Source: Chthoniobacterales bacterium (GTDB lineage Bacteria > Verrucomicrobiota > Verrucomicrobiia > Chthoniobacterales > DASVRZ01). Taken from it: 44,662 bases of DNA. Below, in pieces: positions 20,967-37,887 of this stretch. The notes under the pieces were generated by a model that made no database searches, was not told where the DNA came from, and worked only from the letters and a program-made list of their open reading frames with translations. The position numbers and the translations under genes were made by a program. Position 1 is the stretch's first letter; each line of letters starts with the position of its first letter. The DNA lies in assembly GCA_039930045.1 (NCBI GenBank), contig JBDSQB010000019.1, forward strand, positions 1-44,662, in the 5' to 3' direction.

Positions 20967-21440
20967 ATGTTAGAAAACAAACTCTCCATCACCATCACCG
21001 ACGCGCAGATTGCCGCCGCCCGCAAGGGTCTTGCCGACCTCAAAGCCGCCCTGCCTTTCCTCCTCAGCCTCAGTGCCGCCGAGCGCAAAAGCCTTCCGCA
21101 GATCAGCAGTGGCAGCGAATATTTTGTGACCGACGGACTCAACGCCGCCGCCAGCAACCCCGAGTTTATGCCTCCTTATGTGGACCTCGCGGAACTCAAT
21201 AAAGACGGCACCGCGTATGCGCAACTCGCCCCTCTCGCCGTCGAAGCCCGTCAAATCCTCGGTCTGCTCAACGACACCACCACCGCCCTCGGCAGCGAGG
21301 CTTATGTGGCCGTTCTTGCCTACTATGGCTCGGTGAAAAACGCCTCCAAACATGGCGTTGCTGGAGCCAAGCCGATCTACGACAAACTCAAGAAACGCTT
21401 CGAAAACAACGGCCCTGCCACGCCACCGGCCACTCCCTAA
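20967..21440 (+). CDS. Hypothetical cytoplasmic protein
   Basis: A 157-residue protein starting at ATG 20967 (MLENKLSITITDAQIAAARK). It is mainly helical with the segments LADLKAALPFLLSLSAAERKSLPQI, SEYFVTDGLNAAASNPEFMPPYVDLAEL and TTTALGSEAYVAVLAYYGSVKNA, and a Pro/Ala tail. There is no signal peptide or membrane helix. It looks like a conserved family of small helical proteins seen in Bacteroidetes and Verrucomicrobia, but I cannot name it. The longer frame from 20814 has atypical composition upstream. A terminator follows 28 bp downstream. Confidence 0.7.
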   Translation: MLENKLSITITDAQIAAARKGLADLKAALPFLLSLSAAERKSLPQISSGSEYFVTDGLNAAASNPEFMPPYVDLAELNKDGTAYAQLAPLAVEARQILGLLNDTTTALGSEAYVAVLAYYGSVKNASKHGVAGAKPIYDKLKKRFENNGPATPPATP

Positions 21441-21467
21441 AGCCCACTGCTCCGGCTTCTATTTTGG

Positions 21468-21500
21468 AACGCGGCGATTCCACCGGATCGCCGCGTTTTT
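21468..21500 (+). terminator. Rho-independent terminator
   Basis: AACGCGGCGAT (21468-21478) and ATCGCCGCGTT (21487-21497) form a perfect 11-bp stem with an 8-base loop, followed by T-run to 21500. It ends the transcript of the 157-residue protein and borders the 21-bp array. Confidence 0.85.
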
Positions 21501-21524
21501 GCGTCCACCGCGTTCGGCCTGTCT

Positions 21525-21763
21525 CCGCTCGCGATCCTTCCGCCATCGCTCGCAGTCAGTTTTTCACCGCTTCTGGTCCCACTTTTTTCGCTCCGGTTCG
21601 CTCGGCCAGCGCTTCAGAGCCGACTTCCATCGCACTGGAGCCCTCGTTGACCGCTCCAGAGCGACACCGCACCGCTCACCTGCCTCCGGCGACCGCTTTC
21701 GGTCCTGTTTCGTCCGCTTGAGAGCGGTTCCGAAGTGGGGTAGGGCGGCTCGGAAGGAGGGAT
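21525..21763. repeat. Degenerate tandem array with exact 21-bp period
   Basis: The pentamer YCGCT (or a one-base variant) recurs at 21525, 21546, 21567, 21588, 21609, 21630, 21651, 21672, 21693 and 21714, every step being exactly 21 bp. A cytosine at unit position 12 is invariant, and CA/GA at positions 20-21 is frequent; most other positions vary. After 21718 the motif appears inverted (GAGCGG at 21722, GGGCGG at 21743, again 21 bp apart), with the junction CCGCT-TGAG-AGCGG. Because 21 is a multiple of three, several frames stay open, but there is no start context and the minus frame is stopped, so coding is unlikely. It fills most of the 406-bp gap between two plus-strand genes. Confidence 0.85.
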
Positions 21764-21786
21764 ATTCCCCTCGTAAACGTTCTTTT

Positions 21787-21834
21787 ATGAGATTCAGTCG
21801 CATTTATTGCTTGCTTCTTGAGATTCCGTCTCAA
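21787..21834. promoter_or_regulatory. Duplicated operator-like palindrome before the flavin operon
   Basis: TGAGATTCAGTC (21788) and TGAGATTCCGTC (21819) differ by one base and are 31 bp apart, about three helical turns. The downstream copy is part of the palindrome TTGAGA-TTCCG-TCTCAA (21818-21834), the upstream copy of a weaker one. They lie 13 bp before the ATG of the barrel gene. The TGAGA/TCTCA arms resemble Fur-type boxes, but the regulator is not identified. Confidence 0.5.
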
Positions 21835-21846
21835 TAGTGTGACCTC

Positions 21847-22698
21847 ATGAAAAAACTCACCTTGTTTCTTACCTCACTCGCCGTCGGTCTGGGCGGCTTC
21901 ACCACTCCCTCTCTCCACGCCGACGAACATCTCTTCGGCTGGGTGCGCGGAGCCGAAACCCTGCCCGCTGGCCACTTCGATGCGTATCAATTCGTCACTC
22001 TCCGCACCGGCAAAGTCTCCGGGCAATACCACGCCTGGGATTACGATACCGAAGTGGAATATGGCATCACCGATCAGTTTCAGGTCGGAGTGTCGGTCAC
22101 GAACCACTACTTCAACCTCAAGAACGTCGAGGAGCTGGATAATGGAAAAAATCTCCTCTTTGGCGGCGTCGAAGCCAGCGCGAAGTATCGTTTGCTCAGC
22201 CCCTTCAAAGACGGCATCGGCCTGGCCTTGCGCATGGAGGGCGGCTATCTCGTGAAGGACGACGTCGGCGGCCTCGATCAAAAGGAATGGTTCATCAACC
22301 CTCAGATCATCCTCCATAAGAACTACCTCGACGACACGCTCATCTTCCATTTCAACACCGGAGTGCAATTCGCCTGGGGCAAAAAACCCGCCGAGGAATA
22401 CGATCACGAACTCGCGCTGGAAGCAGGCGTCGGAGCGTCGTATCGGTTTGCCCCGAACTGGTTTGCCGGAGTGGAAACGCATTTCCGCTCGGAGTATCCG
22501 AAGTTCGACATGGGGAATTTTGAGCATTGCGTGCTCTTTGCCGGGCCGAGTATCCATTACGGGGCGAAAAACTGGTGGGCCACCCTCAGTTATAGCTACC
22601 AAGTCTTCGGCAACGAGGTCGATCAAGTGACCAATGGCAAAGCTTACGCCGAGGAAGCCCGCAACGAGACCCGTCTGAAAGTGGGCTTTAACTTCTAA
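21847..22698 (+). CDS. Exported outer-membrane beta-barrel protein (DUF6662-like)
   Basis: A 283-residue protein with signal peptide (MKKLTLFLTSLAVGLGGFTTPSLHA). The mature part is a series of beta-strands (FGWVRGAETLPAGHFDAYQFVTLRTG, YHAWDYDTEVEYGITDQFQVGVSVT, FFNP-like WFINPQIILHKNYLDD, WWATLSYSYQVFG) ending with LKVGFNF, a Bam-type C-terminal phenylalanine. It heads the flavin redox operon, directly behind a duplicated operator-like site. A role in letting substrate or metal across the outer membrane is inferred. I would not name a family with certainty. Confidence 0.68.
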   Translation: MKKLTLFLTSLAVGLGGFTTPSLHADEHLFGWVRGAETLPAGHFDAYQFVTLRTGKVSGQYHAWDYDTEVEYGITDQFQVGVSVTNHYFNLKNVEELDNGKNLLFGGVEASAKYRLLSPFKDGIGLALRMEGGYLVKDDVGGLDQKEWFINPQIILHKNYLDDTLIFHFNTGVQFAWGKKPAEEYDHELALEAGVGASYRFAPNWFAGVETHFRSEYPKFDMGNFEHCVLFAGPSIHYGAKNWWATLSYSYQVFGNEVDQVTNGKAYAEEARNETRLKVGFNF

Positions 22699-37242: not shown

Positions 37243-37536
37243 GGTAATTCGGAAACGGCTGACGGCGGGTAGATTTTGTCCTACGGGATTGACGGTTGGC
37301 TGAATGGTTCGCCGACAAGTTCCGACGGTAACGACGCGTGGAGCGACGGATAACCGATATATTCCGCCGGTATTTGAAGTGGGGAGGTTCGGTCCCGGAG
37401 GAATTCCGACGGTATTGAGACTGTGACCAGCAGTTCGCCGACAAGTTCCGCCGGTATCACGAGTTGGGTCGTTAGGTAACGGACAAATCCCGACGGGATC
37501 GGCCTTGTTCCTCACGGGAAGAGTGGTTATTCCATT
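37243..37536. repeat. Degenerate tandem array with exact 42-bp period
   Basis: Units begin with GGTA or GGGAT at 37243, 37285, 37327, 37369, 37411, 37453 and 37495, every step exactly 42 bp. The strongest consensus is at the unit end, ACAAGTTCCGAC (or ATTCCGCC), and at the start GGTATT. The half-units show a weaker 21-bp repeat beginning with GG or CGG. The 348-bp intergenic region 37192-37539 is almost wholly taken up by it. Read on the minus strand it gives 14-residue repeats around NTVGI, but there is no start context or stop-free long frame with gene-like codons. Confidence 0.85.
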
Positions 37537-37539
37537 CGT

Positions 37540-37887
37540 ATGGAACTCGAATCTACCGCAGCCGCCGCCCAACCCGCCTCAGTGGCCTTAAATGAATTGA
37601 AGACGATGGCTGCGCTCGCCAATGACATTCGCTGGCAAGCGATGAAGATGATGTCCGACGGTTCCACCCTCACAATCACCGATCTGGCACAGGTGATGAA
37701 CATGGGGACCGACGGCGTGGGCAAACACCTGATCGTCCTGCGCAATGCCGGCGTGGCCGAGTTTGCCTACGGAGAAGACGCCCGGTTTAATGTCTATTCG
37801 ATTCCCAAACGGTTTCTGCGCGAACCGGGTGTCGTCGATTTCGGATTTTGCACTTTGCGGTTTCCTACTCCCAAAAAGCCTGAATGA
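37540..37887 (+). CDS. ArsR-like winged-helix transcription regulator
   Basis: A 115-residue protein: LNELKTMAALANDIRWQAMKMMSDGSTLTITDLAQVMNMGTDGVGKHLIVLRNAGVAEFA is an ArsR-type winged helix with the recognition helix around residues 56-70, followed by wing YGEDARFNVYSIP. No metal-binding cysteine pair is seen. It starts directly behind the 42-bp array, and the start codon forms part of a TGGAACTCGAAT motif. It may bind the array, but this is only positional inference. Confidence 0.82.
   Translation: MELESTAAAAQPASVALNELKTMAALANDIRWQAMKMMSDGSTLTITDLAQVMNMGTDGVGKHLIVLRNAGVAEFAYGEDARFNVYSIPKRFLREPGVVDFGFCTLRFPTPKKPE

Follow-up and report, generated by a model that had tools for sequence, protein, structure and literature searches.

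An intergenic array of phased 21-bp units in a Chthoniobacterales bacterium, one of a family with private cores, as a candidate protein-docking site

The array and its neighboring genes

The window, which is the whole 44,662-nucleotide stretch of DNA from a Chthoniobacterales bacterium that was analyzed here, carries a degenerate tandem array in the gap between two genes and a second array farther downstream. The features are as follows.

20967-21440, + strand: gene for a 157-aa helical protein without a Pfam domain (helical bundle in the AlphaFold2 model, pLDDT 84)
21441-21846: gap holding the array, between the 157-aa gene (20967-21440) and the DUF6662 gene (21847-22698)
21468-21500, + strand: intrinsic-terminator-like hairpin, AACGCGGCGAT-TCCACCGG-ATCGCCGCGTT followed by TTT, read directly from the sequence
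21525-21734, no strand assigned: core array of ten 21-bp units, with the core YCGCTyc at unit positions 1-7 and an invariant C at position 12
21714-21727, no strand assigned: perfect dyad of the last full unit, CCGCT-TGAG-AGCGG (array dyad p = 0.037)
21735-21755, no strand assigned: degenerate eleventh unit, with GGCGG at 21744 in inverted phase
21847-22698, + strand: DUF6662 gene, starting ~110 bp past the array
37290-37539, no strand assigned: second phased array, built of alternating 42-bp units (2 x 21) with the core TTCCGNCGGTAT and an identity of 0.59
37540-37887, + strand: gene for an ArsR-like winged-helix protein, starting directly after the second array

Ten YCGCT-like cores follow one another in the first array (21525-21734) at a spacing of exactly 21 bp, as the earlier note on this DNA had described. 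CGCT starts at 21526, 21547, 21568, 21589, 21610, 21652, 21673, 21694, and 21715 in nine of the units, and the tenth site, at 21631, reads CGCA and is still in the 21-bp register. The invariant C that had been claimed for unit position 12 is present in 10 of 10 units. When the region is compared with itself, identity reaches 0.50-0.53 for lags of 21, 42, 63, and 84 and 0.455 for a lag of 105, and at all remaining lags it is 0.37 or lower. When periods of 15-44 were scanned in the gap at 21441-21846, the best period was 21 at 5, 7, and 9 units, and none of 1000 dinucleotide-preserving shuffles of the gap matched any of the three period-21 scores, which confirms that the array is non-random. The view that the period equals two helical turns, with one site per 21 bp, also held, and no harmonic at 10/11 bp was observed. 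The array is absent from the list given by TRF at score 30 because its copies are only ~50% alike, and it has neither an Rfam match nor a promoter match.

An orientation flip followed by two inverted units had also been proposed for the end of the array. The dyad in the last full unit is real, but a clean switch of orientation is not found, because half-sites also occur earlier; in-phase AGCSR half-sites lie at about +9 of the unit in the core array, e.g., AGCCG at 21618, AGCCC at 21639, and AGCGA at 21660. Downstream of 21723, only one weak unit (GGCGG, 21744) is present rather than two. What looked like a flip is therefore an imperfect dyad, repeated in register along the array.

The hairpin at 21468-21500 is terminator-like and would terminate the upstream gene ahead of the array, although it is missing from the output of a consensus scan. 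An orthologue of the DUF6662 protein in another genome (G007) is 57% identical and has no array at its locus, and thus the array is not tied to DUF6662 by descent. It accompanies instead the family of the upstream gene at 20967-21440. Two similar inverted repeats (TTGAGA-TTCCG-TCTCAA) at 21787-21803 and 21818-21834, directly 5' of the DUF6662-ApbE gene run, resemble a metal-regulator operator.

A genome-wide family of arrays and the proteins linked to it

Genome statistics were based on 1.22 Mb of stretches from the array's own genome with crude gene calls; periods of 16-60 were scanned, a mean column identity of at least 0.55 was taken to define an array, and arrays were chosen by best score. 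This unbiased scan found a period-21 array in 18 of 452 gene gaps, and at the other periods from 16 to 60 no gap reached the threshold, except at period 42 and in one gap at period 28. A restriction of the lag-21 signal to the array at 21525-21734 is not supported: the signal exists in ~4% of gaps genome-wide, and therefore the YCGCT word is private to one array and is not the point. By extrapolation, ~50-60 arrays are expected in the whole 3.5-Mb genome if this density holds. Further tandem arrays with private units were found in the same genome by searching for three CGCT at 21-bp steps. Each array has a private core of 4-11 bp, outside which its units are close to random in sequence. The cores include ATTGAAA at C17:1722, AAACGTCT at C16:124734, GCGGACGAAT at C2:173057, and TTCCAG at C2:201858, as compared with YCGCT in the array at 21525-21734. 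When 36 arrays were pooled, the excess identity was 0.34, 0.37, and 0.34 at lags of 21, 42, and 63, respectively, and at most 0.006 at all other lags, with neither decay nor a half-unit harmonic.

The types of gaps that hold arrays follow the genomic background, with all types represented. Ordinary genes flank about half of the arrays, and three arrays lie between convergent genes, where no promoter is expected. Some arrays are near-perfect and young, such as one of ten units on contig C21 with a mean column identity of 0.88. One contig end (G000:C17:210774-210914) consists of perfect 21-bp copies (GGGCAACCGACTTCCCCCAAC), so that the assembly breaks at a young array. Random samples of the order-level relatives G018, G050, G027, G014, G022, and G007 contained no convincing array, and in G014 relatives of two array-linked proteins are present elsewhere in the genome. 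An apparent 21-bp match in G007 was judged by eye to be a glycine-rich coding repeat and was rejected. A search of the open-access literature found no matching element.

About half of the arrays in the own genome adjoin genes whose products, 157-251 aa long, have no Pfam domain, and these arrays are most often situated just 5' of the gene. The protein encoded at 20967-21440, which has no match in Pfam, has relatives in 4 other genomes of the 388 searched, at 26-34% identity, and at all four of these loci a 21-bp array, unrelated in sequence, lies no more than ~1 kb away; a paralogue at C17:153530 has a degenerate 21-bp array downstream, as judged by eye. A second orphan family, composed of N-terminal helices and a fibronectin type III (FN3) domain according to AlphaFold2 and Foldseek, has a 21-bp array at 12 of 17 loci. 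The array is almost always immediately 5' of the gene or of a short ORF preceding it, and relatives from other families or classes, with 62% and 54% identity, are among the members that have one. A 21-bp array is also present at a PQLLE-family paralogue (L180). In the genome G286, 6 of 8 family loci have an array, whereas 400 kb of this genome sampled at random, with 125 gaps, contains no period-21 array (0/125; Fisher p = 4e-9). Conservation thus extends to the module but not to the sequence of the array. The orphan proteins, with their FN3 domain or helical bundle, do not have the look of DNA-binding proteins.

Short tryptophan-rich ORFs (MKPLTWD..LRWND.., MNWDNGQWDSGTWDQP) lie directly before orphan genes in several genomes (loci L158, L163, L165, L173, and L174). 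G286 also contains 22-bp arrays (C14 40180 and 92458; C46 10-360), among them a minisatellite with near-perfect copies that is found at two loci unrelated to each other. Another 22-bp array there, a degenerate one with dyads (CACCCC..GGGTGG), lies upstream of the gene for an 86-aa companion protein that has 24 matches in G286.

The neighbors of the array at 21525-21734 are the helical protein gene and the DUF6662 gene, and the second array in the window directly precedes the ArsR-like gene. The protein encoded at 37540-37887 gave a match to HTH_5 with E = 8e-4, under the curated cut-off. An alternating array with a period of 44 lies directly upstream of its homologue in G286, the only other homologue found in the DNA that the analysis covered. 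Of 368 genomes, 28 have an ArsR-like homologue, and the presence of such homologues correlates with that of the orphan proteins, as 6 of the 9 other genomes with orphan proteins have one (hypergeometric p = 7e-6). The own genome has three ArsR-like genes, including a weak and partial match. The protein encoded at 37540-37887 is a candidate array reader, and its family, which stands beside two arrays, is the sole candidate for DNA binding seen; two arrays and a co-occurrence are not proof.

Other repeats exist in the own genome. A dispersed word, ATGGAACTC(G)nnTC, occurs along with ATGGAAGTC; in the 1.22 Mb, ATGGAACTC was counted 161 times, mainly within genes, and examples in the window are at 21625-21637 (reverse) and 37540-37552. 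The word resembles a DNA-uptake-sequence or chromosome-architecture motif. One REP or MITE-like family, GGGAGCGCACGCGTCTCGCGTG.., occurs in up to 17 of 524 own-genome gaps, e.g., in the C16:203858 region, and another, GGAGTTTGGGAACGAGG, occurs in about 10.

Constraint on the units and alternative explanations

Columns were more uneven than neutral decay from identical copies permits in 21 of 29 arrays. In the array at 21525-21734, column heterogeneity was 2.5 times the neutral value (p < 0.002), and the conserved columns were clustered (p = 0.004). The likeness in variable columns was 0.361 for adjacent units and 0.366 for far units, and the absence of a neighbor effect means that recent local duplication does not explain the likeness. 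In two pairs of homologous arrays (C2:26460 versus C17:66870, and G311 versus G138), the difference in length is a single 21-bp unit exactly. Core and variable columns were also compared for changes after divergence in two homologous pairs, each with few changes: the first pair gave p = 0.03 at one cut only, and in the second the core columns were not more conserved than the variable ones (p = 0.8). The consensus core was a dyad at p ≤ 0.05 in 11 of 36 arrays, where about 2 would be expected.

These data bear on whether the arrays are simply neutral or selfish minisatellites, formed when slippage in a lineage yields 21-bp copies in long gaps that then decay, with the link to orphan genes reflecting acquired, poorly constrained loci. 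The near-perfect young arrays (on C21, and at the end of C17 with identical copies), the whole-unit indels, the occurrence of arrays in every gap type, and the ordinary 22-bp minisatellites in G286 are all consistent with such an origin. We nevertheless consider it unlikely, at odds of roughly one in five, because the period is single, the spacer columns are saturated while the core columns are conserved, adjacent units are not more alike than distant ones, and the same protein families adjoin arrays in distant genomes, as opposed to none of the random gaps in G286. Somewhat less likely still is that orphan genes are spread by a gene-cassette-like element whose recombination or mobility site, similar to an attachment site, is the array. 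The sporadic distribution of the orphan families (5 to 7 of 388 genomes), their 62% identity across classes, the high copy number in one genome (the 86-aa companion with its 24 matches in G286), and the location of arrays on either side of the gene would agree with such an element, but the arrays lack a common core and, save for one paralogous pair and dispersed repeats, have no common ends, leader, or tail; no recombinase was seen, and phages, plasmids, and viral contigs gave no match. A MITE was rejected as blastn of the flanks revealed no common ends, only that pair and the dispersed repeats, and the lack of matches among phages, plasmids, and viral contigs likewise led to the rejection of an origin from any of these.

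Intrinsic DNA curvature, in which the gap would be bent by any motif repeated every two turns, whatever its sequence, would account for both the fixed period and the free sequence, and predicted curvature was indeed slightly in excess of that of column-permuted arrays (Stouffer z 2.8). The excess is, however, due to a few arrays, with z = -0.08 for the array at 21525-21734, and a 10.5-bp harmonic is absent; we regard this explanation as improbable. Slightly more improbable is that each unit forms a hairpin in a transcribed RNA or in single-stranded DNA. Inverted repeats do exist inside many units, e.g., CCGCTTGAGAGCGG, but no Rfam match was found, and complementarity within units was 1020 of 1728 pairs versus 1027 expected from independent columns, an absence of compensatory change by which hairpins are largely refuted. 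The least probable explanation is that the arrays encode heptapeptide repeats. It draws on the fact that 21 bp correspond to seven codons, on the 161-residue frame at 21352-21837, which reads RSRSFRH RSQSVFH and onward, and on some other arrays that are open in one frame (KRLxxxx, VKLDPKV, or LEGSIDT). That frame, however, runs across the terminator of the previous gene and has no Pfam match. Moreover, no mod-3 conservation dip was detected over 29 arrays (p = 0.98), and homologous arrays differ by 4-7 synonymous versus 11-19 non-synonymous changes in every frame, without a synonymous excess, which leaves the heptapeptide reading largely refuted and supports the view that the 161-residue frame is not a protein.

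Interpretation and comparison with known systems

The data show that the arrays are not the product of chance, that they have a fixed period, a constrained private core, and a bias toward dyads, that they are non-coding and form no hairpin, and that they are linked to families of orphan proteins in distant genomes. At the 10.5 bp per turn of B-DNA, no integer length shorter than 21 bp completes whole turns. That the period is fixed at 21 while the sequence varies freely therefore suggests that helical phase is what is selected, and the dyad cores, together with the absence of compensation and of general curvature, make protein-dimer sites on one face of the DNA the most economical reading. We therefore propose, with a probability of about 0.45, that the arrays are non-coding stretches of double-stranded DNA, in phase with the helix, on which DNA-binding proteins specific to each array dock. 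The array at 21525-21734 would offer ten copies of one putative protein site, each two helical turns apart, on which bound proteins would line up, touching, on one face of the DNA; the proteins are probably dimers because many cores are dyads. The private core of each array may require a reader of its own, or one that diverges alongside the array. If iteron, centromere, and multi-operator arrays are a guide, the resulting nucleoprotein filament would most likely regulate or organize the locus to which the linked orphan gene belongs. What speaks against docking is that ~60 private cores would call for many readers, and the ArsR-like genes found are few. The arrays beside ordinary genes or between convergent ones, the match of gap types to the genomic background, the orphan proteins' lack of resemblance to DNA-binding proteins, and the homologous pair without better-conserved core columns also count against it.

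A broader proposal, which is possible but doubtful, is that the arrays represent an undescribed class of chromosomal elements: docking arrays with a fixed period of 21 bp and private cores that travel with orphan small-protein families, with array and reader diverging together to give dozens of mutually insulated addresses per genome. If the docking reading is right, ~4% of the gene gaps of one bacterial chromosome would be helically phased binding arrays, of a kind that escapes standard repeat finders, as their copies share only about half of their positions. The private arrays would then form a natural panel of DNA-binding specificities diverging without cross-talk, and they would give the first functional handle on unannotated orphan-protein families.

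Several known systems share features with the 21-bp arrays. Ordinary bacterial VNTR minisatellites also have tandem units and gain or lose whole units, but the 21-bp arrays keep a fixed period over unrelated sequences, have a constrained core, and are tied to specific gene families; rather than near-identical units under neutral decay, 21 of 29 arrays had columns that were too uneven, and no neighbor effect was seen. BrickBuilt of Porphyromonas gingivalis is a minisatellite-containing MITE with intergenic 23-nt units, conserved and variable positions, and ~19 loci per genome (PMC4596501). It resembles the present arrays in its short intergenic units, in the alternation of conserved and variable positions, and in its many loci per genome, but BrickBuilt loci have one unit, a leader, a tail, and terminal inverted repeats in common (PMC4596501), while each 21-bp array has its own unit, and blastn of the flanks found no common ends. 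CRISPR likewise alternates a short conserved segment with a variable one, but its repeats are ~23-50 bp with spacers of similar size, in contrast with a core of 4-11 bp in a unit of 21 bp.

Plasmid iteron arrays and par centromeres consist of direct repeats about two turns apart, are private to each replicon, and are often located beside the gene of their reader. The 21-bp arrays agree with them in having direct repeats at whole helical turns, with signal at lags of 21, 42, and 63 only. They differ in lying on chromosome-sized contigs, at an extrapolated 50-60 per genome, in that no Rep, TubZ, or ParM gene was noticed beside them, and in that the proteins linked to them are mostly not DNA-binding. 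TubR is an ArsR-like winged-helix protein that binds the tubC iterons, and the TubR/tubC system is the nearest in logic to the 21-bp arrays. The mechanism may be like that of iteron, centromere, or multi-operator arrays, as a candidate analogy rather than as membership of any of these groups.
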